In this document: positions 6,471 to 43,900 of the stretch, piece after piece
How positions within the stretch are numbered: position 1 is the stretch's first letter
Layout: the number at the start of each line of letters is the position of its first letter
Source of the DNA: Saururus chinensis
Lineage: Eukaryota; Streptophyta; Magnoliopsida; Piperales; Saururaceae
Assembly (NCBI GenBank): GCA_035235625.1
Contig: CP141143.1
Span: 25,279,092 to 25,343,091, forward strand
DNA length: 64,000 nucleotides
Reading direction: 5' to 3'
The notes under the pieces: model-generated
The model's database searches: none
Seen by the model: only the letters and a program-made list of their open reading frames with translations
Told to the model about the DNA's origin: nothing
Made by a program: the position numbers and the translations under genes

Positions 6471-6866
6471 TTTTCTCATTTACCTACTTTGATTTGTACT
6501 TGCTAGAAATTTCAAATTGGATTCATCAACATGTGACCAATGCGTACATGTGACAAATGGTTTGATTTGTGCCTTTTAGAGTTCACCTAAATATTTTTCT
6601 ACACTATTAGTGTAAGGTCCCTAATTTTTCTACGATTTTCTATGATTTTCCTGCTATTTGTTTGGTCATTTTCGGCAGGAAAATGTGATTTTTCAGTGTA
6701 TGTGTATTTGTATATTTTACCCCATATTTATACCCGTAGAGTCGGGTGTGGGGCTTAGTCGTAGGCCATGGGCCTTGCTGCACGCTTACGGCGCGAATTT
6801 TGGAGGTTCGACGCGTAACGAGTGAGTTAATGCGCGTTGAGTATACGTTTGGAAAAAAAAAAAAGA

Positions 6867-6892
6867 GGGATCGGGATCGCGATCCCGATCCC
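6867..6892. repeat. 26 bp perfect palindrome built from GGGATC/GATCCC
   Basis: Bases 6,867-6,892 are identical to their reverse complement, centred between 6,879 and 6,880. The arm is GGGATCGGGATCG. It follows an A12 run and opens the GC-rich block of the giant LTR. The second LTR copy lacks it. Confidence 0.9.
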
Positions 6893-6899
6893 GATCCAC

Positions 6900-8700
6900 T
6901 GGATGGTGAACAATGTGCCGCCCCCCTCCTTTGCATCTGTTCCCTGTGCCCGGCCGCTGGCAGGCCGCAGGACGCCGGCACAAGCTCTGCCCCGGCGGTG
7001 CGACGCCGAGGGGCCACTGCCCCGGCCGCCCACGGCCGCGCCGCCTCCTCCCCCGATTTGCCCTCTCTCCCCTCTGTTTCATTTGCGCCGCCGCCGCCGT
7101 GAGCTAGCGAGGGCCAGACGGCCGCCCACAGCTCCGCCATGGGCTGGCGACGGCGGGAGGACACTCCTCCCGGCCCCAGACGGCCTCTGCTCCGCCGTCC
7201 CGCTCCGTTTTCCCCATTTGCCTCTGTTTTCCGCCCCCTCTGTATCGTGCCGTTCTGCCGCCGCCATGGGCCGGCACGGCCTGACCGGCCAGCCACGGCT
7301 CCGCCCTGGGCCGGCGACGGTGGGAGGCCATCCCTCCCGGCCCGGTGGGCCTCCATTCCGCTGCCCCGTCCTCATCCCCCTCTCTGCCCTGTTCCGCCAA
7401 CGCACTGTTTTGGGTAAACAGTGGCCGTCAGCGGTGATCTGTGGCTGACACAACCTTCCTCCAGCCTCGCCTTGCTCCGACGAAGGCAGTGGACTACACC
7501 TCTATGCCCGGTCCCGCCTCCGCCCTCCCTCTTTTCTCCGGCCAGTACGTTTTATCGTACGATTTTCCGGTGGGTTGTCACCGTTACCGTTGGCTTGTGA
7601 GGGCAGCCCGGCTGCTGTGGGCTCCGCCCCGGCCTGGCGATGGCCCAGGGACGACCCCACCCACCTGGACCGATTCAGCCTCCGTCCCCATGGCTGCTCC
7701 GCCCTTATGGGTTTTCCCCAGTCAGCCCCTTTGTGTTGGCTTTTGACGCCATCGGCATTGGCCGATAGTGGCCGAATGGCCACCGAGGATTCCGCCTCAG
7801 TCTAGTAACGACTAGAGACGGTCCCACCTCGCATGGTTTGATTGCCTCTGACCTGTGCCTTTCCTTGTGGCCCGTAGCCACAAGTAGTTCCATCTTACCG
7901 ACACGTTTGCCCGTTGACCCCTCTTGCCCATTTTATGCCGTCGGTACCGGACGGCCTCTGGCAAGAGTTTGTATGACTTACTTTGACAGAAGGTGGACGA
8001 GTTCACCTGCACAAGCCTTGGCTAGTGACGGCCTCGTGGCCTTTGCTCAACCCTGAACCTTCCCCTTGCCCAATACCGTGCGAGATGCACAGCTACCCGC
8101 ACCATTAGTTTTGGTTGTGGGTAGTGATCGGCGATGTCGCCGCTTAGATTGGCCACCGCTAGGGCCTTAGTCCTGTTGGCCTTTTGTGGGCCTTGGGTCG
8201 TCTTCGTTCAGCCCTCTCCCCCGCCCCTTTGGGTCGTGTGTGCATGTGGCCACGCGTGTACTTCTGGGTTAGGCGCCGCATTCGCGCCGCCTGACCATCG
8301 GTTGGCTTTGCCACCAATTGGAGTTGACACAGAGCCGTCCTCCACCTCTCCTTTGTCCTCGAGTGTTGCCCCACGCTCTCCGCCCATATGTGGGCCCTTG
8401 TTGACATGAAATCGTCGCCGTTGGGTGCTGTCCACGGCCGATTTCGAACGTCTTGTGGCTGGTTGAGCACGTCTTAGCCACCGGCCCATCTTCAGTGAGT
8501 ACACCATCGACCTATGGTCGCACCGCCACTTATGTTGGCATGATATTTCTCCCGGCCACCCTAGTGTGCCGCCATGGATCACTTGTTTTGCCACATTGAT
8601 TTCTGACACCCTGTTTGGCCGTTATTGTTTCCGGCACTTCCTAAATCCTCGGGACAGCAACTCTCTCAGCCAGGCAACGGTTTTGACCTCCAACTCTGCC
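6900..8700. other. GC- and CpG-rich block inside the giant LTR
   Basis: GC content rises sharply against AT-rich surroundings, with many CCG, CGG and GCC words. Several long overlapping open frames occur on both strands (for example 6,640-7,356 minus and 6,837-7,448 plus). They are low-complexity Arg/Gly/Pro/Ala translations with no domain and are a composition effect. A matching but shorter block lies at about 51,600-52,960 in the second LTR copy. Confidence 0.6.
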
Positions 8701-16070: not shown

Positions 16071-16699
16071 TTAAACAATGTATCCTTGGGGAGAATTGCG
16101 TTTGCACCCGCACTCAATGGAGAGTTGTTTGTTGGCTTAAACCTCAAATACAAAGTTGCAATTCAGGTCATTTTGGAAAAATTTAGAAAAAAAAATTGTT
16201 ATTATATTTAAGACATAAATAATTAAAAAATTAATTAATTAATTAAAATTATAATAAATTATTATTTAGAAAATAGTAATGTGGGACAGTGGGATTATTA
16301 GTCTATTAGAACATAGATGAACACAAGATTTATACAAGAGGTAAAAACTAAAAGGCTTGTTATAATGAGTTCAGGTTCATGTGCGACTATGTGAACTATG
16401 CATCTTAGGCCATTAGATTTTAATCTAACGGTATATGATACTCAAGGGGCAAGTAGCCTTAGATAATTTACACCATTGGATCAAGATCCAATAGCGAGCC
16501 GAGGGGTAAAATTATTACGAGTTTTTTCCATATTACCTAGCTGAAGAAGTGAATATTCCATATTCCCTAGTTTTTTTACAAAAATACCACTAAAGCCGGA
16601 CTTACACGATATTAGAAATTTTTTGAATAGAAATACCCCTGGGTTAAGGTTTAGGGTTTTATATTGTGTAAACTCATTACACTATTGCATTTACACACA

Positions 16700-19600
16700 G
16701 ATGGCCACACCGACCGGCGATTTTGAAAGTCTGATTAGTGATATGCTAATACACAGTGTGAGTTTTGATTTTCAACCCATCCCACCAGGATTTCCAAAAA
16801 GTGACAATCGATTTCCAAAGTGCAATTAGTGAGACGTGAAAAACTCCGCAACGTCCGGTTTTTCTTGTTTATGATAGGCGATCTTGAAATTTTCTGCCTC
16901 ATAGCGAGTTTCAGTCGTGAAGTAAGGTTCTATCCGAGTGTATGCTGATGCGATCCCAGTAAAACAGTGAACTTTGACGAAAATCATCAGCCGATGGAGG
17001 GATTAATCCGGCTCGAATCAATTTCATGGTAAGGGCTTTCTCTAGCTCTAAATCGTATATTCGTATACACAATTTTTCATATATTGTGTTATGGAACACA
17101 CGACATAGTAATTTCATCTTGTCAGTAGTTTTTCATGTTATCAAGTATATGATATGTAATATATCGTGTTATCAATAATATGATATACGATATAGATGTC
17201 CTCCTATCGTGTATGCATAGCATACATAACATGCTATGAATATGCAAAAGAAAACATTCAATTATTGTGCTATCATGTCTAAGAAGGCATCATATCTTGT
17301 ATCCGATAATACGATATATGAATTTAGCATGCATTTGGTTGTTAGTTACATAATGTGAATGAACGCGACTCTTTGATTTTGGTTACAACCCATTGTTGAT
17401 ATATTTATGTATAACATCTTTTACAGACGAAGAGCTATAACAATACAGTCAAATAGCAGAATCAGTGAAGGTATCAAAAGAGAAGAAAGGAATTTATGGG
17501 AGGAGACCAGCTCTGGGAACTAACAGTTTCCCCGTTGGACTTAGACTATCAAAAGACCTCGTTGAATCGAGGCAATCTTGGAGGAGACTGGGTTCTACCC
17601 AGTATACGATTGCGAGTTAATAATTATCTATAGGTCGCTCCTAGACATTCTAATAGGTGAGTGTTGGGACGACTCACAAGAAGTTTTCAATATTCGGGGC
17701 AAAATACTACCCCTTGCAATCAAAGAAGCCTCACTAATAATGGATGTAAGTGCGAAAGAGAACCCGTTGAAGTTGGATAGTGTTGATGGGAAGGCTGCCC
17801 AAGGCAAAGGGCAATTCTTCAAAAAGTTCTTTGCAGGGAAGCAGCCGGAGAAGAATCTGATTGAAGTAATTTTGAAAGAAGTGGCAGACAACAGGCGAAT
17901 TGTCTCTAACAAGGACTTAGCACTGTTGGCCATCATGCATATGGGGGTCCTCGTTTTATTCACACAAGGCAACATATTTGTCTCCCCATCTCTGTGTGAC
18001 TTCATAGATGACATGACAGTTGTGGGGAGGTACAATTGTGTGGGGGTCATTTATAACTTGTTGATTCGAGGCATATCATCAACCCACCGAAAATCAGGAG
18101 TAGACGAGTACTCTACCATTGTCAAAATTCTCGTTGGGGCTTCATTTGTACTTCAGGTAAATATCGTATTATCCATAATACAATGGCTACAATGAGCATA
18201 CTATGGATAACATGATAGCATATACACACTTTAGGTATATCATCATATGAATCACACAATAGTGTACATATCATGTTTAAGAAAACACACTATGTAACAT
18301 GAAAGTGTACGTATCATGTTATCGGTCAGACGATGAAGTACTATATCGTGTATAGTCAATTACATGATGTGAGAATTGCGTGTAATCGATGACACAATGA
18401 GTTTAAAAATGTGTTATCCATGACATGACATACATGACATATGATCACTATTAACAAGATTGTTTTTCCTTGTCCACTAGGTGTGGTTTTCTTAGCATAC
18501 TTCTATATGGGCTCCTAGTTCTCCTCCATGTAGCCCAAAGGTGCAAGAGGTGGCCCAGGTTTATGCAACTGATGACGGACATGGAGAAGGCTGCAAAACT
18601 TGTCCCAACCGATAAAAAATTGAGGAAGAAGCTATTGGCTCATCACAGGAAGAGGAAGTGGTATGAGGAAATACTCGTTCAGCTCAAGGCAAATTCACAA
18701 GTGGTTATACAAATAATTTTGATTGCCGAAGAGGCCCACTTGACTGATGGCCACACATACCACAATATAGAGGACAACGGTTATCGTTCAAGCCCATCGT
18801 AGCCAAACATCAGGGCAATTCCAATCCGGCAAAGATGTCATTGACAACTTTGTCATGCTAGTGGATGTCATGGCCGGGATCGTTGACATGGTATTGGAGA
18901 AGGCCATCTTGTATGGGGAGCAAGGTTGGAGCACTGACAGTGTGCAAGTTGCACTCCAGAGGGTTAAAAATGCTCTCGAGGTGGCAACGAGCTTATTAGA
19001 TCAATTGCAACCCCCACTTGAACCGGAGAACAAGTAGTCGCACGAACCCCCTCAACCAGAGATCTTACATACAACAACCCCTCTACCAACAACTAAAGGA
19101 GAGACATCAGTTCGGGTCAAGGCCAAAGCTTCCAAATCAATTGAAGCTATTCACCAATCTACTTATAAAGAGCAAAGAAAATATGTCCCTTAGTCTATTG
19201 ATGAGGATTTTATTTTGCATAAGTATATTTTCGATTACACGATATTTTCTATTATCGTGTTAGTTTTGAGGTCATCATGTCATCATTCACATGCAAACAT
19301 ACATTGTCATTTTATAAGAAAACGATATGGTAGTGGTCATGTGAGCGATAACACGATCCTATATATTAACGTATTAGTTTCAATATGATAGGTTGACATG
19401 TGTTATCAATAACACACTTTGTTTGCATTTTGTGTATTTACTAATACAAATTGTTACATGTTATATGCAGAGAAAAGGAGCTGAAAACTGGCTCCCCAAA
19501 GAAAAAGAAGTGTCTGAAGGTTGAAAGGACAGTAATTATCAGATTTCTTAGGAAAATTAACGAGGAAGTGGTTCAATCTCGGGAGAAAAAATTAGGTTAA

Positions 19601-21190
19601 GTTTGGGAGGAGGAAGCGATGCACTAAAGTAAATAAAATTGAAGATAAAGAAGCGGAATGCTTCAGATGCTAGCCCCATCATACCTTACTACCCCCCATG
19701 CCTAGGAGGACGAGGTATACAGTGGCTAATCCACCTGATCATGCATCAAAGGGGGAGGAACCAACCAAGAAGGTGGCCGCTAAGGGTGCAAAGAAACCAA
19801 AGGGATATAGTAGCTACATTGCCAAGAAGATTGCAAAGATGTCTTGGCTAGCAAGGGAGGAACAGAAGGCAAAGTCAGGGGATGAAGTTCCATTGGCATC
19901 CGTCCCTTCCCCACATATTATCCCTCCACCAGAGGCATTTTCTACAAAGTCTCTAACCCTAAAAATGGTGAGATCAAATGTTGCTTTCAAGAGTGCCACT
20001 ATATTTTATAATACTGATCAAGTTGATCAGGAACTACGACAAAGTATCTGACATGTGATAGACATGGAAGAGCACATCGAGCAGCAAAAGACAAGGAGGA
20101 GGTCACTATGGTGCCACACATCTCCTTGATCTACAGATGGTGTTCCACATGGAGATTTTATGGGGTGAAGATTAGGAGATCATCTAGGACTTTTGGCATA
20201 CCCACACAAGGAATGGCTCATGGTGACGCTTCTCCACACTGATTATGTGTCTCTGCTTAGACAGGAGTGCATAACGAATGAGGTAATAATTAGTGAATAG
20301 TTAATTATCATGTTCTTGAACATACGTTGCATTATACAGCGTGTTATTAATCACATGATAGGTAAAAAGTGGCAAAGGCCACTTCTTTTATCCCATTATT
20401 GATAATACGAATCATCCACATCATTATATAAATAACACAATATTTTTAAAATGATATTCTTGTGTATAACTAGCGTATTTCTGATTACGTGACATATTTT
20501 ATGTTGTGTTCAAAGATAAATTCATAGGTCATGATTGTACTGACATAACGTATCGTACATCATGTTATCACTAACACTAATATTTTGTTGATGATTTTAG
20601 GTCATAGACGTCTTTAGCCAACTTCCAGAGGAGCGCAATATTAGATACCCCATACTTTATCCCAACTATTTTTTAGGGAGATTCGTGATCTAGCACTACT
20701 ACAACATTGGGAAGCAGCAGGCAAGGAGGAAATGTGCCCCAAAATCGTTGGAAACATGATGAAGAGGCTAAATGTTAACACCGAGAGTGGTTTCATTCTG
20801 ATCTACATCATTGACAATTTTCTTTTGCTAATTGCCCGATGCAGGGAGAAGTGGTTTAGGTGGTATAACCCACTGAAGGGTGACCACAATCACCACTTTG
20901 CAAAGGTGGACCATATTTGGAAATGTGTTGCCATAGAAATAGAAAGAGTCTTGCACATAAAGGGAACAACAAAGTGGCCATTGACGAAGATCAACAAATG
21001 CCCATATCAAGAGACGAATGAAGAATGTGGTGTGTTACTCATGTATTATGTAGCAAAGCTAGCTAGAAGAGTTCTTCAACCAAATTTTACCCAAGCAGAG
21101 ATCACAAATTTGGTCAGGCCATAGAATTGTGCGGCCATTCTTCGTAGGCAAATCAATCAGGAATTCAATCCAAAAGCGGATGAATTGTAA
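16700..21190 (+). pseudogene. Ulp1-like protein gene of the Mutator-like element
   Basis: A possible start is the ATG at 16,700 (MATPTGDFESLISDM). The frame at 17,578-18,195 has SNKDLALLAIMHMGVLVLF and STIVKILVGASFVLQ, resembling the N-terminal region of plant Ulp1-transposon proteins. Further pieces at 18,470-18,802, 18,855-19,037 (coiled-coil-like, GIVDMVLEKAILYGEQ) and 19,698-20,051 (Lys/Pro-rich) are joined by introns or broken. The last piece, 20,732-21,124, contains YQETNEECGVLLMYYVAKLA at about 21,004-21,063, matching the Gln...Asn...Cys-Gly-Val box of C48 cysteine peptidases. Stops and frame changes between pieces suggest decay, though some breaks may be introns. If active, such a protein would cleave SUMO-like conjugates; that is family knowledge, not shown here. 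Confidence 0.6.
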
Positions 21191-24100
21191 TCTGTTTTAC
21201 TATTTTTTTAGACTCTATGACAATACACAATTTATTAATTTCACTCAATTGTTTTAATTTCATTCCCTATCATGTAATCTATGGTAGTCAATTGAGTAAT
21301 CAACTATGCAACTTGACGTATGTCATGTTAGGAAAATGACGATCATCCAGTTGGTCGTGTAACTGAGAACATGACAATACATTGATCGCGTCACCAATAA
21401 CACAAGTTAAAGACAAGTCGTTTTAATTTCAGTCGTGTAACTACTAACACGTACTCATGTACGTGTGTCTAATATAGGATTCATATTGTGTAATCAGCAT
21501 GACACATATACGTAAGTCATGTTACTAATAACTTGAAGCCATATATAGTCGTCTAATATAGGTTATAGCTCGTGTAAGCACAACATACCAAGGTGTATGT
21601 CGTGTCATCATTCATATGACCGTTGTTTACGTCGTGTTAGGAAAAACACGATCTTCTAGTTGGCCGTGTATCCGATTAGACAAAGTATATTTAGGTCATG
21701 TCATATTAGTGTAATGATCGTGTGAATGAGAACACGACTATACGTTGATCGTGCCACCGATAGCGCGAGCTTCAAACAGGTCATGTGTCATATAGTGCAT
21801 ATCGTGTCACCGATAAAGTGTTACATGCCATGGTTTGAAACTTTTTCATGAGTTGAAAAATAGGAGACCCAAAAGACAGTTGTAGGGGAAAACACTTTCT
21901 TTTATTAATATTACTTGATGAGTTCATTACATAAACAAAATGACCTCAGTATATGCCAATGATACTATTCTTTACAAAACATAAAAAAATAAAAAAATAC
22001 ATCAATAGACCACCATCCATTCACTAAACACAATACTAAAAATAGCAAATTGTACACCAAGTAGATCTCTCTCATCATACACACTCTATCTAAAAGTTTC
22101 AGCATTTGTCTCTTGGAGGGTTTGCAGGCGCTCCTCCAGTTCCAATTGCAAGTGAAGGATTAATCATAGTCAATATAATAGACAATGAAAGTCAAATCTT
22201 TCTTAAGAAGATTGTACACCAACTATCTCTATGACCATAGCCTGGTGAGACATCAAGTAAAATGTGATTAGACAATTAGAACATTGAAATAACGCCAGAT
22301 TATGAGTCGTCCTCCCCAAAGGCAGATGAGGACTGCACTAGTCTCCTTATCTGCCTCATAGGGTGACGAAGTTAAGATTGGGTATTATTTATATGTCCAG
22401 ATTGCCCGGCGTTTTGCCCAGACAGCTAACCATACTATGCTCATGGAGACAGATGGTGTTTGATCTGTCCCAGTGGTGAAGTTCCCCATGGGTGCCAAAT
22501 GGTAATAGGAGGTGTAGATTTATAATTGCTAGTTTGGAAATGGATGCATCGAAAATTAGTGATGACTCCTCACAAATTGGTGATTCATACTTATGGAGTC
22601 TATGCTAGAAAGTGGATTGACTCTTCAGTAAATGGTGATGTCGAAAATTAGACTGACTCTTCAAAAATTGATCATTTATTTAATGTTATTATCATGTTAT
22701 CGATATTATGACGTTAATGATATCGTGTAATTGGAGACAAGTAGTTTAGAAAAAAAACATTATCTTCATTGAAGGTCTTTTCTTATCATGTAACTAGTAA
22801 CACATAAAGCCTTTGGGTGTGTTTCCAATTACATGATATGTATATAGTATAAAATGTTTACAAACAAAAAATCAAAATATCATGTTATCGACATCACGAT
22901 CCTTAACTTGGTCATGCTATCGATAACACAATACATAAACAAAATCGTGTTGCTAAGAACATGATTGTACAATGGCATTTCCTCCAATTAGTTAAAGAAA
23001 GGGGTAGAAAAGGCAACCCTGATTGGTGTTCTCCTTCCTTACATCGTTTTCCTACTCTTTTAGTTGCCCTCCTTCAACTTACACTTGGACCATCAGATAC
23101 ATTCAGAGGGTCCTCTTGTCCGTCGGTACAACGTTTTTGGTTGTGACCTAACTGCCCACATGCTCCACAATTGCATGGGGCTTTGACCTTTGGTTGTGAC
23201 TATCCAGTTTTCTGTGGACGTCCCTGCTGCTTGAGTGGGATAGGTGGGTTGAATGTAAACAGAACTCCAGTTGGTGCCCACTAGTGACTATCTATCATTG
23301 GGTATAAAGGCTCTCAATATGTCATTCTACCATTTTTTGCATTACTCAAACACAAAAGTGTTTGTTATTAATTGTTGTAATTGCATGTTTACACAAAAGT
23401 GTGGTTGTGTGCTCCCTTGTATGCTCAATTAACCAAGCTATAGACATTGACCTGACTTTTTTTAACATTGCATTAGCACTTTTAGACCTGCTTGAGCTGA
23501 GTGTTCTATATATTTTTCTAAGAAATGCAACATTGGTCCAGTGCTTTGAACCTATCTTATTTAGCCAAGTAAATGCTTCAAGATTTTGTTCTTTAATGTT
23601 ATTCATTGTTTCATCATACACATTATGTCTGAAAGTTTCATCTATCACATGGAGCTAGTTCTTTAGGTGGTTGCCTTTGAATCTATCCAACATATTTGCT
23701 ACCATATAATAGATGCAATATTCATGGTGTGTATAGGGAAAATACTGCTTAATAACATTTGCCAAGCCCTTCATTCTATCAGAACAATTGTATCCAACTC
23801 GGCTGGAGGATCAGAAAATAGATTATTTTTAAGCAAATTAAGAAACTAGCACCATGTTTTATCACACTCGTTCTCAACATCTACAAATGTGATGCATAAC
23901 ATATTATTGATCTTGTCTAGTGCAGTTGCTATCAATAGTTGACCAAGATACTTTCCTTTTAAGAAAGTCACATCTACCATTAGCAATAGCCTCAATGTTG
24001 TTCTGAAGGCTCTTGTAACCGGCTCAAACATCCCAAAGACTTTTAAAATCGTATCCCCCCATAGGTCCAGGAATATCACATGATCTAATTAGAACAACTA

Positions 24101-25450
24101 CACTTCTTGGGTTAATCGTTTCTATCTGAATTCTGTTGCAGGAAGTATGTGATAGGATTCATCTGGGTCCCTATCTATTAAATCAGTCGGTGCTTTACAT
24201 GCATGACAGAATATTAAGTTGTTAACATTCTAATAAAGGTTATACAACAAGTTAATATGTCGTGTTCCCAATAACACGACAATGTTCATAGTCGTGATTT
24301 TGTAAACCTGAACTGTTTTAGCATCATGTTCATGTTAACACGATAGGTAATTAGGTCGTGTTGTAAGAAAATGTGATGTAAGCTTTGCATGTGATCGTAA
24401 GCTCTACATGTGCCCGATAACATGTCATATTTAAATGTCATGTTACGGAACACACGATGCAAAAAATCTCATAAGTTTTCTTTACGTGTGTGCCAACATT
24501 TCTTGTAGTTTGCAGCAGTGTTTTAAAACCGGCCCGGACCAGCCGGTTGGGCCGGGTTTAACTGGACCCAGTTAATAATCCGAACTAGTTCATCTAGTTC
24601 AAGGGGTCAACATGACCCGACTGGGTCAATACAACCCGGCCGATTGAACCGGTGACCCGCTGACCTGAGTTGGTCCAGTTTATTGTTCTGTGATGAAAAA
24701 TTTTTATGTTTCAAGCGGGAGTTCACTCTCGCCCTATTAAATATATTACTAATACCTAAACCCACTGGCTACCACAATTTTGCTTTAAACATCTAACACA
24801 ACTATTTTATTTAATGCATATTTATCTACTTTACAACTATAACTTCAAAACGGTAGGGGAGGGATTCATACTCCAGATGTCATGCAACTGATTTACCTAC
24901 ACGACCCGCTGCGCTACAAAGATTTTGTGTATACATCATTATATTTAATCTAATATATAGGAAAACTGGGTCAACCCGGGTTGACCCGCGGTTAAACCCA
25001 ATTGACCCAACCCGGTGACCATTCCGGGTCAATGGCCGGGCTAGTTTTTAAAACTAGTTGGCAGTTATACCCCAGTGCTTCGAAATATATCTTGCTATAT
25101 TTTTCGGTGTAATGTCTATTGAATTCTAGAGGATGATCTCCTATGTTTGAAGCCCTTATGTAACAATTACAAGACTGATTGGAGCACTTTGCGATATATG
25201 TATTCCTGTTCTCATCCATAACACGATAAGTAAAATTCACCTTTGTTGCTAGGTCGATCAAAACCCTCTTGAAATGTAAATAATATCGTGTTATCGATAA
25301 CACACTTGTATACAGGTCGTGTTATTACATCTACGCTAAAAAGAATTAGTGTTATATTGCATATGTATTTCATATAATTAGTTATACGATATTATAAATA
25401 TCATATTTTTCTTCACACAATATTCTTTGAACTAAACACGATACGTTAGA
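17130..25450. repeat. Field of short palindromic TCGTGTTATCGATAACACGA-like motifs
   Basis: Introns and spacers of the Mutator-like element are packed with variants of this 20 bp inverted motif. Clear cases are 17,164 (TCGTGTTATC), 19,345 (GCGATAACACGAT), 19,400-19,415 (GTGTTATCAATAACAC), 24,260-24,279 (TCGTGTTCCCAATAACACGA) and 25,288-25,303 (GTGTTATCGATAACAC, a perfect palindrome). Further variants lie near 18,163, 18,318, 20,338, 21,432, 21,647, 22,690, 22,885, 22,918, 24,357 and 25,437. Copies are irregularly spaced and absent from the recognisable coding pieces. Confidence 0.75.
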
Positions 25451-25990
25451 TATCGTGTGATCGAGCACACAATAAACCCCCATACAGTCATGTAATCTAA
25501 AATTGATTGTTACATGACAATTTCAAAAGTGAATTGTGTATAATTGACTCCCATCTGCAATCCAAAGTTAGAGTTTGGCCAGCCATTACCACCGGTGATT
25601 TAGTTTTATTGCATGTTTGGTTCCTTTATAATGATGGTGATTTGTCACTGTTGTCGGGCATTTTCATCTTGGTATACAATGATAACATCTCCTTATTTGC
25701 CTTCTTATGAATGGAAAACAATGATTGCAAGTCCTCATTGTCTTCTAATTTATATAAAATGGATGATTGGAAAGATATAATTAAAAATTTCAAAGTTATG
25801 TTACTATTGACGACAAGTAGTTCTTTGACTTGAAGCAGCAGCAGCTTGTCAAACCTCACCGATGAATCAATGTTCATCAACTGTGTATTTTCACTTATAT
25901 ACACGTTATTATTATCTACCTCTCCATTGTAATATATGTAAATACCAATGCTATCTATTATGGGGGTTAAAGGGTGATTGGATCTACTGA
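22970..25990 (-). pseudogene. Mutator-like (MULE) transposase, broken
   Basis: Read on the minus strand. The N-terminal part (25,904-25,626) has NEDLQSLFSIHKKANKEML. The next piece (25,303-25,060) has a MuDR-type region with CSNQSCNCYIRASNI. The core (24,079-23,846) has DVTFLKGKYLGQLLIATALD, the first catalytic Asp block of MULE transposases (usually DGTFLK). The second Asp block follows at about 23,795-23,700 as CSDRMKGLANVIKQYFP with HHEYCIYYM. Then comes NIKEQNLEAFTWLNKIGSKHW (23,600-23,540). Near 23,180-23,130 is a zinc knuckle, CGACGQLGHNQKRC. Frames change and stops occur (one near 23,655), and a MITE interrupts the second piece, so the gene is dead. Confidence 0.8.
24519..25055. mobile_element. 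Fold-back MITE inserted in the transposase
   Basis: The left end GTTTTAAAACCGGCCCGG and the right end CCGGGCTAGTTTTTAAAAC are imperfect inverted repeats, followed inward on both sides by GGGTCAA/TTGACCC-type words, so the arms are well over 80 bp. The interior is non-coding AT-rich sequence. It splits the transposase frame at its FEALGYNCQ end. Flanks TTTGCAGCA and GTTGGCAGT might be a degraded 9 bp duplication. Confidence 0.7.
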
Positions 25991-26526
25991 AATAAAGGCT
26001 TTCAAGTCCTAAACAACTCTTGGAGGGTAAAAAAATGGGTTTTTATTGAACACCAAAACTCGCTGGTGAGTCATTATCTGTCACTTCCCGCCGGCGACTT
26101 TTGACTGCCCCCATGAATCCTCCCCACCAGAACGATATCACACTGTTTAGTGTTCATTTATTATAATATGTATGATTTCATCCCAAAATAGATAATATAA
26201 CATTTGTGTTTAAAATCCACATAATATAGAATATTTGCTTTAATATAGCAAAAACTCAATTGTTACAACAAAGTAATGGTGGTAACCTTTGCCGTTTCCT
26301 ATTAGTTTTTCGTTTTCCGGCTTGGTTGCCACGAATTTGACCGGCCCGAACCGGCAACCCAGTCGAGAAAATCTTGTAAATCGAAAGCTCATGAACTGCA
26401 GCGCGCCATCTTCCCTGCATCATCACCTTCTATGGCACGAAATCAGGGACGGCTGTATCCTTTCTGTTACAAAAAGTCTTTTTTTTTCTGAATGAAATTA
26501 CAGTTAAAATTCCTCTGTGACAAGCC
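25991..26526 (+). other. Upstream region and 5' leader of the prolyl 4-hydroxylase gene
   Basis: No open frame of note. The sequence changes from AT-rich element border to a GC-richer stretch from about 26,280. No convincing TATA box was found at a definite distance. Confidence 0.35.
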
Positions 26527-40947: not shown

Positions 40948-43900
40948 TGTCACGCCTTGGCATTGCCCGACCCGAGCCGAACTCGGTCCAAGGGCCAGTC
41001 AAGCGTACGGGGGCGATAAGGGGAATTGAGATACGGTTTAGCGGAAGACTTAACCCTAATTACGGGCGATCTAATAGAATTACGGAGTATGCACACCACT
41101 TTGAGTAAGAGTAAATAAGTAGAAATGAAAGAGTTACTTTAACTCTAAGATAAACAAAAGTCTCAAACCTACATACTTAGTTAAACCATAGCCCACTCTA
41201 CACTCTAAAATAGGTCTTAAGCAACACAAATGTATAATGTAATATAAACCAAAATAAGATCCACACACTCCAGGGTTCTAATCATAAAAGCATAAACAAG
41301 GAAACAAGTCACATAAGGGGTCTCCACGATCACTCCCACGTCGTCTCCGACCTTTCCTCATAGAGGAGATCCTGTCCATCTGCGTGTCACGCTACGCAGC
41401 CCCAAAGCAAAAACACAAGAAAGAGGGGTGAGTTTAACAAACTCAGCAATGATTTTTAATATAACTATAATCATCGGAAACACGACGGTATCACAATTCA
41501 GATCAAAGATTGACAAGATGTATCATTTTCTGATCACACATACACATCACCTAAACCTACATCATAGTGTATAATTCACATAGTGTCATTCACATCATAT
41601 CAACCTGCATGAGATGTATCTCTAACATATATTTTCGATCATGTATTAACATCACATCAACCTATATGAGTTGTATCTCTAACATATATTTCATATCATG
41701 CATCAACATCATATCATCCTGCATGAGATGTATCTCTAACATACATTTCAGATCATGCATCAACATCATATAAAGAATGCCTCCATCAAGGAGTAATCAC
41801 AATTTAATGTCACACAGATGGGAACACAGACAAGGCCACAAAGGCGTGTCATAGTCCAAATTCTACACAAGAATTTAAGAGGTTCGGGGTTGTCAATCTC
41901 TAAAGCTGCTCGCCCCAAACGATCCTGGCCAAAGATGTCATATTCTCACGAAGAGAATCTAGAGCAGGGGTGTTCGCCCTGAGACATCTCCTGTAATGGG
42001 GAAGAGCCCGAGTTCCCACATAGGAAACCCTAGAACACATGGTAGTTGGTGCACAGAGCATACCATACTAGATTCTCAGGGTCCAGAAGACAATCATAAT
42101 AATCCCAAATCGCAAGACAAGTACGTAACTCGTCCCCTACATAATTCCATTTAACTAGACTCAACCCGGGGAGTGCACATGTTCCACAAAGGAACTCAAA
42201 TCAAAACATGTCATTTTGGACTAATTAAGTTTCAATTAAGCCACGATTGATTAATCCGGCACGCAATTTCACTACATTGCATCCAATCGATCAAATTCGA
42301 TTAATCTCAATAAAGCCTCTAATGGAAATCCATTTTCATGATGCATGCAATATGGTACATACGTGGGCAAGGTATACATGAATCCTAATTTATGATAAGT
42401 GCTCTCATCAGCCCCTCATGCATCATTCATAATCATAATATCAATGTTCATCATCATCATTAAACCCCACATGTGTGTGTACCTAGTAGAAGCACTTCAC
42501 ACAATGCATATCAACATGCTTGTAATTCACTCACCATCACACTACACATGTGCATTAACATCTAATCATGAATTCCAGCGGAAATCATAGGAGAAGAATC
42601 ATTAAAATCATATCTCAAGTCAAAGCCTATCCACAAGCTAAACATATATAAGATCATTCAATTCATACTTGAGCCATGACATTCACTAACATTTTTACAT
42701 CAATTAACCACATCCTAACATGATATATCAGTCCGTTAGTATGCTGTAGCTCTACTGAAAATATACTTAACCATAGAGAATCAACCATTCATAACTTCAA
42801 GATGGCAATTCCAACATCATATATCCAATCACAAGCCATTCCACATAACTCTAAATATATACCACAACTTCATAACCTCAATGGTATACCCTTCCAGTAG
42901 CATACTATAGCTCAAAACACTCCACATACATATGAAAATGATATATCAAAGTGGAATCACCGAAATAAATATAATGCAAATAATACAAAATCTACTGTGT
43001 AGCCGTTCGAACACCCAGTAGGGCCGTTAGATCGGCTAAACGGGAAATCTGTCGAATTGATAGTGTTTCCGTTTGAACGCCCAGGAGGGCCGTTCAAACG
43101 CCAATTAGGCAGAATCGACCTTCTTCTCCATCTCAAAATTTCAAACCGAAACTCCATTGATGAAACTTAAAATCTCCATCTAACAACCTAAATGCCATTA
43201 AAATTCCACCATAACTTCCAGAAAGCTAATCTACATCATAACAAGATAAAACCCTATGAAATCGGGATTAAATGTTACCATTTACTAATCATACCATTAA
43301 AACACTAAATCAAGTAAATCCACTCAAAATAAACCACAAAATCAAGAGTTTTACCATAGGAAGACTGAAATTTCGAAAGTCCATTACCTTATCCCTTGAT
43401 TAGGCTTGGATTTGATGGTCATCCTTCTTGAAAACCTTACAATGACATAGAGTTTAAATTAAACTCCATTAAAACCGATTTAACATAGAAAACCCTAAAG
43501 AAAAACTTAGATCTATGGCTTGTTGAACATAAAAATCGGATTTTTAGATCTAGGGTTTGAAGTAAAGATGCAAATCAGTAGTTTTGATGTTTAAAAACGA
43601 ATCAAAATAAAGGGGAAATGATAGATTTAGAAAGGATTAGGAGAAAATCTAGGATTTAAGGCTTAATTACAAGAGACTTACCTTAAACACCTTTTAATCC
43701 GGGCTTAATTGAGAATTAGGCCTAACCTCCCTTTCCCTATCTATTCCCAAAATGGAAATGACTTAGGTCATTCTATTTATAGTAGGGTTTGGGGTGTGTA
43801 TAGGTAATTAGTGGGGTATTAATAGAAAAATGGGCTAAAAATAGGTATTTTGGCTATTTGAACACTAATTAAACCTGAAAACATTATGAAAATTTTTATA

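Follow-up and report, generated by a model that had tools for sequence, protein, structure and literature searches.

Within the 64-kb window (the whole stretch of DNA that we analysed), the non-coding DNA of one Mutator-like element is filled with copies of a long palindromic motif. We propose, with a probability of roughly 0.7, that these palindromes are cis-acting binding sites for a sequence-specific anti-silencing protein which the element encodes, its DUF1985-Ulp1 product of the VANC/KAONASHI type being the likeliest candidate. A chromatin signal fits best because the motif occurs throughout the family, sits in non-coding DNA and is in phase with the helix, because another DUF1985 family in the genome has its own motif, and because the arrangement is VANC-like.

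A palindromic motif field in one Mutator-like element

The element spans 16519-26257 (9739 bp), as set by its termini and target-site duplication. Its inverted ends read GAGTTTTT(T/G)C(C/T)ATATTA, and the terminal inverted similarity is clear over about 17 bp. TIRs that are absent, or short and degenerate, are given as a mark of VANDAL-type MULEs in the available part of PMC6446971. The window element has short degenerate ends of this kind and a 9-bp target-site duplication matching at 8/9 positions; the 9-bp duplications of its relatives L046 and L047 match at 9/9. A DUF1985/Ulp1 gene on the plus strand converges on a mudrA-type transposase gene on the minus strand, and the same convergent pair is present in relatives L036, L038 and L039. 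The features are as follows, with a strand given for exons.

16510-16518, left target-site duplication, AATTATTAC
16519-26257, whole Mutator-like element (basis: homology to most relatives begins at about 16519, inverted ends, target-site duplication 8/9)
16519-17048, left terminal zone, motif-free; first site centre 543 bp inside the element
17049-17317, 5 motif sites upstream of the DUF1985/Ulp1 gene
17380-18156 (open part 17566-18156), plus strand, DUF1985-type first exon of the VANC-like gene; tblastn 54% to L036
18160-18431, intron 1, with 8 motif sites
19219-19452, later intron, with 5 motif sites
20304-20582, motif field in the intron preceding the Ulp1 exon, 6 sites
20645-21121, plus strand, Ulp1 (Peptidase_C48) exon; E 0.0023, 18.3 bits, under cut-off; 65% to L035
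21319-22967, spacer separating the two convergent genes, with motif fields of 16 sites in all; 21825-22687 is empty
23001-24217, minus strand, mudrA-type transposase exons; MULE domain 23849-24088
24256-24460, mudrA intron, with 4 motif sites
25133-25222, minus strand, MuDR-type DNA-binding-domain exon; DBD_Tnp_Mut E 1.4e-4, under cut-off; 87% to L036
25282-25475, mudrA intron, with 5 motif sites that include the perfect palindrome (25288-25303)
25476-26257, right terminal zone, motif-free, containing the mudrA N-terminal exon; last site centre 795 bp inside the element
25581-25841, minus strand, mudrA N-terminal exon; 65% to L036
26258-26266, right target-site duplication, AATTGTTAC

The family combines DUF1985, Ulp1 and MULE domains, several of them recognised more firmly in relatives than in the window copy. 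The MULE domain scores 29.8 bits in L036, above the cut-off that marks a Mutator-type transposase, and 17.3 bits, under it, in the window. Peptidase_C48 is above cut-off in L035 (E 4.9e-9, 36.8 bits), and in the convergent pairs the Ulp1 domain runs opposite to mudrA. In L035 and L036 the first exon is free of stop codons. A Pfam search of the window's DUF1985-type exon gave no DUF1985 match. The DUF1985 protein of a VANDAL-type MULE is instead seen in family members, namely L036, under the Pfam cut-off (25.2 bits, E 1.8e-5), and nine places above it (for example C7:29065657, 43.5 bits) that coincide by genome position with the family's list, their sequences lying outside the loci fetched. Structure prediction for the DUF1985 exon returned a mean pLDDT of 34.

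The motif is a dyad of 20-26 bp that carries three CpGs, with the consensus ATATCGTGTTATCGATAACACGATAT in a symmetrical weight matrix and a perfect copy, GTGTTATCGATAACAC, at 25288-25303. Scored with the symmetrised matrix at a threshold of 9 bits, the element holds 49 sites (centres 17062-25462), none of them in its recognised coding DNA when exon queries are trimmed at splice sites. The original prediction that an inverted motif fills the non-coding DNA and avoids the recognised coding parts is thus borne out. Its claim that the motif occurs nowhere else in the window holds at up to three mismatches to the core, where all 13 matches fall inside 17086-25470; the matrix adds one weak site (12.6 bits, at 42826) in the remaining 54 kb. 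Dinucleotide shuffles of the window gave a mean of 0.20 such matches and a maximum of 2, which confirms the enrichment. The extent originally given, 17130-25450, falls short of the element's limits.

One motif across a large family, another in a second family

The motif is restricted to one transposon within the window, as originally claimed, but genome-wide it belongs to a large family. We counted 829 copies of its 16-mer core in the genome (516 Mb), against 0 for the reversed control and 1 for a permuted palindrome. All 29 relatives retrieved with a DUF1985 exon carry the motif outside that exon; with the window copy this makes 30 exon-centred loci, each with 1-11 sites at up to three mismatches and none within the exon. 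Absence from other copies, which would have counted against the prediction, was therefore not seen, and neither was an equal density in random DNA (0 sites in two random 5-kb genome stretches, a small control). As in VANC systems, where the motif is dense in the non-coding DNA of cognate elements only, nine coding elements with trimmed exons hold 330 sites in 59,402 non-coding bp versus 3 in 28,099 coding bp. An untrimmed count had placed 25 sites in exons and 308 in non-coding DNA; most of the 25 were reads past splice donors, and 3 remained after trimming. At least 150 relatives were scored in the genome, with 2034 first-look candidates, and one long palindromic site is kept wherever examined. 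A genome-wide DUF1985 scan gave 957 first-look candidates. Both motif and spacing persist between elements whose DUF1985 exons are about 60% identical. A literature search, with most subscription papers outside its range, turned up no plant study that contains the motif core; three papers had the 12-mer, all listed as being on bacteria or yeast, and none had the 20-mer.

The same genome contains a second DUF1985 family (L056-L059) that resembles the window family in joining a DUF1985 exon to a dense, periodic, family-specific motif. Its motif, AAAACTATAAAACTGG, is directional with steps of 8, 16 and 32 bp, whereas that of the window family is palindromic, and the four loci hold no palindrome sites. 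AAAACTATAAAACTGG has 380 exact places in the genome versus 0 for the control. Among 100 places listed, 51 have a scored DUF1985 exon no more than 2.5 kb away (random mean 0.12), and all 51 of these exon-near places among the matches listed are upstream of the exon and co-oriented with it. A further DUF1985 locus, L060, showed no clear array within 3 kb and 1 weak palindrome site. As to the host plant, a plastid rbcL fragment matched several plant Rubiscos in the PDB about equally well, and a putative accD-like frame next to rbcL in L050 would speak against a grass.

These data bear on whether the element has recruited a host factor, such as a transcriptional activator or a replication or silencing protein. 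The dyad, with its 20 bp and three CpGs, could be a fitting target for a dimeric host factor, but the two random 5-kb stretches hold no sites and the window outside the element holds one weak site. Because another DUF1985 family uses another motif, an element-encoded binder fits better, and we consider a host factor very unlikely.

Spacing, spacers and site-free ends

Most neighbouring sites lie 31-32 bp from each other, and the remaining gaps tend to steps of about 10.55 bp. The best period was 10.50-10.80 bp in 16/16 stretches (range searched 8-14 bp; z 3.1-13.8 versus gap jitter); related loci are not independent of one another. Exact cores behave alike. When 18-48 bp was allowed between them, 50/50 pairs among the matches listed were 30-32 bp apart (400 pairs genome-wide; backward control 15), and when 49-79 bp was allowed, 47/50 among the matches listed were 61-64 bp apart (223 pairs genome-wide; control 3). 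In the window alone, off-lattice pairs hold the 10.55-bp phase (50 pairs, P 0.0001). The strictest motif set (cosine -0.02 over 37 pairs) lacks this off-lattice signal, as do the single stretches L040, L041, L048 and L049 (cosine -0.05, 0.08, 0.07 and -0.32). A register artefact of the weight matrix was rejected as a cause of the 10.5-bp steps, the consensus scoring -24.8 at shift 10. A 2022 study by Sasaki in EMBO J of anti-silencing across eudicots is reported to have found that the domains DUF1985, DUF287 and Ulp1 come and go among VANC proteins, and that specificity depends on the sequence, density and helical periodicity of the motif. If this is so, phasing in the window family is to be expected.

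Regular arrays might also be a functionless, satellite-like repeat spread by slippage and gene conversion. The short non-autonomous elements look the part: their spacers are tandem (identity 0.76-0.79), Tandem Repeats Finder reports periods of 31, 62 and 316 in L047, and slippage explains such arrays. Purifying selection alone could, moreover, empty exons of the motif. Coding elements behave otherwise. Few tandem repeats are detected in the window element, and the 11-12-bp spacers of coding elements are as alike between elements as within them, only slightly above the shuffled level (within-element identity 0.45/0.39 and 0.48/0.39 in two groups; shuffled 0.40/0.35 and 0.35/0.35). Slippage explains coding elements poorly, because their spacers are no more alike within than between elements and yet the spacing is kept, even across DUF1985 exons of about 60% identity. 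In intron 1, half-site columns are conserved at 0.729 versus 0.658 for the rest, a value reached by 3 of 308 shifts, zero shift counted. As a general account, a satellite-like origin seems to us unlikely.

The palindromes could alternatively bind the mudrA transposase, like the subterminal repeats of other DNA transposons. The motif is indeed family-specific and is retained in non-autonomous elements with the same ends. All 16 measurable element ends, however, are site-free over 475-795 bp while introns kilobases away are filled, which is why we disfavour transposase binding and consider it very unlikely. Of the three readings originally offered, the chromatin signal fits best, transposase binding is disfavoured, and slippage accounts for the non-autonomous arrays but poorly for the coding elements.

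An anti-silencing reading and its known relatives

If the palindromes are anti-silencing sites, each would be bound by a symmetrical (dimeric) protein, and units lined up along the same side of the helix may cooperate over the arrays. Binding would free cognate elements, whether autonomous or not, of DNA methylation and silencing marks, after which the transposase could act at the separate, site-free ends. More tentatively, this might be a palindromic VANC-type system, in which dyads every 31.5 bp (three helical turns) make the half-sites TCGTGT/ACACGA alternate in direction at intervals of about 15-16.5 bp. A dimeric, possibly methylation-sensitive DUF1985-Ulp1 protein could then coat one DNA face in an unbroken array and remove silencing marks as well as SUMO-dependent ones; minimal non-autonomous elements would serve as natural reporters.

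Such a system would be a transposon-encoded, sequence-specific anti-silencing mechanism built on a long palindromic site that the examined relatives share, in a genome where a second DUF1985 family has an unrelated motif. Two families in one genome would offer a natural test of protein-motif co-evolution. Short natural elements such as L046, L047 and L004, which consist of two ends plus an array, would be ready substrates for testing targeted demethylation.

Among known systems, the nearest is the sequence-specific anti-silencing of VANDAL elements by VANC proteins in Arabidopsis, which takes in KAONASHI types that bear Ulp1. In VANDAL21, VANC21 binds a short motif that is concentrated in the non-coding parts, and VANC21 and VANC6 bring about demethylation of their own targets (PMC5735166). 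The window family shares with VANC21/VANDAL21 and VANC6/VANDAL6 a Mutator-like element, a DUF1985 protein and part-tandem arrays. In both, the motif crowds introns, spacers and the non-coding DNA towards the ends while sparing exons, and non-cognate families have other motifs. The VANC21 motif, YAGTATTAY, is 9 bp long, co-oriented and without CpG (PMC5735166), unlike the 20-26-bp dyad with three CpGs described here; the main text of Hosaka 2017 (PMC5735166) makes no mention of palindromes, spacing, intervals, periodicity or helical phase. Unlike VANDAL21 and VANDAL6, the window family has non-tandem spacers in its coding elements, motif-free terminal zones, and one motif common to elements with diverged DUF1985 exons. 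According to the available part of a review (PMC13317346), VANC elements with Ulp1 act on elements like themselves. KAONASHI (KI) MULEs, in the available part of PMC2528002, are high-copy, non-TIR elements with a Ulp1 domain opposite to mudrA; the window family resembles them in these respects but has short degenerate inverted repeats at its ends and a motif field, a feature that part of the source does not describe. We read the motif field as putative binding sites of a VANC-like protein, a palindromic variant with CpGs of a kind already known.

The element and the placement of its palindromes

Homology between the window and most of its relatives sets in sharply at about 16519. The features are:

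Window, G000:C4:25279092-25343091, in a 516-Mb, 11-contig genome that its content, plastid-like rbcL DNA included, suggests is a plant's
Element, 16519-26257; its two ends read GAGTTTTT(T/G)C(C/T)ATATTA, inverted relative to each other
Plus strand of the element, one gene whose first exon is of DUF1985 type and which also has a Ulp1 (Peptidase_C48) exon
Minus strand, mudrA exons encoding MULE and MuDR DNA-binding domains, convergent with the DUF1985/Ulp1 gene

The flanking duplications, AATTATTAC and AATTGTTAC, are 8/9 identical. The window copy looks decayed from its sequence, because its domains score weakly, under the cut-off, whereas the relatives L035 and L036 pass it for Ulp1 and MULE. 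Within a mudrA intron, a stretch (24516-25060) with GC-rich, roughly inverted sequence at both ends (AACCGGCCCGG type) contains no palindrome sites and is probably a nested insertion. Separately, minus-strand open frames at window 6640-7371 and L036:8166-8465 have in common a stretch that reads approximately SKIRAVS.Q.GP.PTTKPHTRLYGYKY; it may be a further repeat found around elements of this type.

The motif is real and well above chance. Its 16-mer core has 13 matches in the window at up to 3 mismatches, every one within the element (shuffle mean 0.20), and the exact 16-mer occurs 829 times in the genome, against 0 for the reversed control and 1 for a permuted palindrome. A symmetrised matrix (consensus ATATCGTGTTATCGATAACACGATAT) trained on 33 stretches finds 672 sites at 9 bits in those 155,783 bp and 8 after they are shuffled once, a count that is optimistic on training data. 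Most information lies in the outer half-sites TCGTGT/ACACGA, with less in the central ATCGAT. The core holds three CpGs, and most deviations from the consensus are C-to-T changes (0.21-0.29 for each C:G pair, all cytosines pooled; other changes at C:G at most 0.043, any change at T:A at most 0.097), an excess that would be expected for methylated DNA.

The original prediction held the motif to be non-coding and restricted to one transposon. The first part stands: nine coding elements, delimited with trimmed exon queries, carry 330 sites in 59,402 non-coding bp versus 3 in 28,099 coding bp. The second is true of the window, with 49 sites inside the element (17062-25462) and 1 elsewhere, but not of the genome, where the 16-mer is abundant and all 30 exon-centred loci (the window copy and 29 relatives) carry 1-11 sites each at up to 3 mismatches, none of them inside the DUF1985 exon. 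Two random 5-kb stretches had no sites; four plastid-like loci had none in three and one weak site in the fourth. The loci L050 and L051 hold plastid rbcL DNA copied into the nucleus, followed downstream by a frame that we take to be accD-like. Nine array loci were examined, representing 8 of the 24 clusters among 50 matches listed on contig C1 plus one from the exact-core pair listing, and all nine are family members. Seven, counting the short elements L046 and L047 themselves, have long terminal or internal matches to L046 or L047; L045 has a weaker match (157 bp, 75-76%), and L044 has a Ulp1 exon.

Element ends, spacing and origin of the sites

Transposase binding had been offered as one role for the motif. 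Among 12 elements with recognisable termini, all 16 measurable ends are site-free, the first site lying 475-795 bp inside; L048 has one site beyond its end. The short non-autonomous elements have the same plan, with site-free ends of 475-650 bp:

L046, 1910 bp, perfect 9-bp duplication, two site-free ends and an array
L047, 2228 bp, perfect 9-bp duplication, two site-free ends and an array
L004, both ends recognised, no duplication shown, two site-free ends and an array

The site-free ends therefore argue that the motif is separate from transposase recognition, and the short elements suggest that a dependent copy needs ends and an array.

Adjacent gaps of up to 120 bp in nine coding elements are 30-33 bp in 109 of 263 cases. 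The 147 gaps of 36-120 bp favour a 10.55-bp period, with a mean cosine of 0.455 where 5000 uniform draws reached at most 0.217, and the best period is 10.50-10.80 in each of 16 stretches (scan 8-14; z 3.1-13.8). Three helical turns already make up the 31.5-bp main lattice, so the real test of phasing lies in off-lattice pairs. At up to 4 mismatches these give a cosine of 0.33 (150 pairs, 34 coding loci; null 99.9% 0.07), and the window alone gives 0.27 (n=50, P 0.0001); no phase is seen at up to 3 mismatches (37 pairs, cosine -0.02) or in L040, L041, L048 and L049, each taken singly.

Slippage or gene conversion had also been proposed. Exact-core pairs fall at 30-32 bp in all 50 listed (2, 28 and 20; 400 in all, backward control 15) and at 61-64 bp in 47 of 50 listed at longer range (others 67, 67 and 73; 223 in all, control 3); to judge by the spacers displayed, tandem arrays are the likely source of most of these pairs. 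The array loci are indeed tandem, and the proposal fits them; it fits coding elements poorly, as spacers there are hardly more alike within than between elements.

Spacer likeness (11-/12-bp spacers)
Array loci: 0.79/0.76
Window-like coding group: within elements 0.45/0.39, shuffled 0.40/0.35, between elements 0.50/0.42
Diverged coding group: within elements 0.48/0.39, shuffled 0.35/0.35, between elements 0.46/0.40

Tandem Repeats Finder detected no more than small arrays in the window's element, and periods 31, 62 and 316 in L047. Across 30 aligned copies of intron 1, identity is 0.729 in half-site columns versus 0.658 elsewhere, a half-site value reached by 3 of the 308 mask shifts, the unshifted mask being one of them. 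Because coding-element spacers are near shuffled likeness and half-site columns are better conserved, motif and spacing are kept while spacers drift, which is compatible with a tandem origin in the ancient past followed by selection.

Family size and a second DUF1985 family

Searches with the DUF1985 exon (58-73% identity, self excepted) and the MULE exon each gave at least 150 scored matches, the best of 2034 and 1703 first-look candidates; as scoring was limited to the best, 150 is a minimum, and the candidate totals are unproven. Nine places among the DUF1985-exon matches coincide with Pfam DUF1985 matches over cut-off, and a tenth coincides only with its neighbours. Some DUF1985 exons have identical scores and long open frames (e.g. 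C2:398799, C6:17378832, C8:21687598), which suggests a recently amplified group. L060, from this group, has no clear motif in 3 kb, only one weak palindrome site. Tandem 48-bp repeats (16 codons if coding) at L040:3655-3800 and L060:1878-2027, possibly in a variable part of DUF1985 genes, are reminiscent of the repeated peptides of VANC proteins.

The four loci that score best for DUF1985, L056-L059, belong to a second DUF1985 family. Their 13.5 kb contains no palindrome site. They have 25 ACTATAA words, 24 in gene direction, as part of AAAACTATAAAACTGG in 8/16/32-bp steps, a directional motif that differs from the palindrome. Genome-wide there are 380 copies of the 16-mer AAAACTATAAAACTGG, against 0 for the control. 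Of 100 listed places, 51 lie within 2.5 kb of a scored DUF1985 exon (15 of 44 exons on C1-C3; random mean 0.12), and all 51 are upstream of the exon and co-oriented with it. None of 50 palindromes listed on C1 lies within 10 kb of its 16 scored exons.

Comparison with known anti-silencing systems

Helical periodicity is said to be a VANC rule, the account being that of Sasaki 2022. The literature searched, which did not cover Sasaki 2022, showed no match for the long CpG-bearing dyad, for a 31.5-bp lattice with unrelated spacers, for a motif common to ~60%-identical proteins or for a genome with a second motif family. Arabidopsis VANC21 occupies VANDAL21 non-coding regions and binds YAGTATTAY in vitro, methylation is removed upon its expression, and VANC6 differs in its motifs and targets (PMC5735166). 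RdDM is active on the same regions (PMC10398659). The match to VANC/VANDAL extends to the genes carried, the field in non-coding DNA, the specificity for a family and the non-autonomous copies; we therefore take the palindromes, by analogy, as putative sites of a VANC-like anti-silencing protein encoded by the element. Such a protein would bind the palindrome, presumably as a dimer, and its binding would lead to demethylation. As a kind, the system is a known one.
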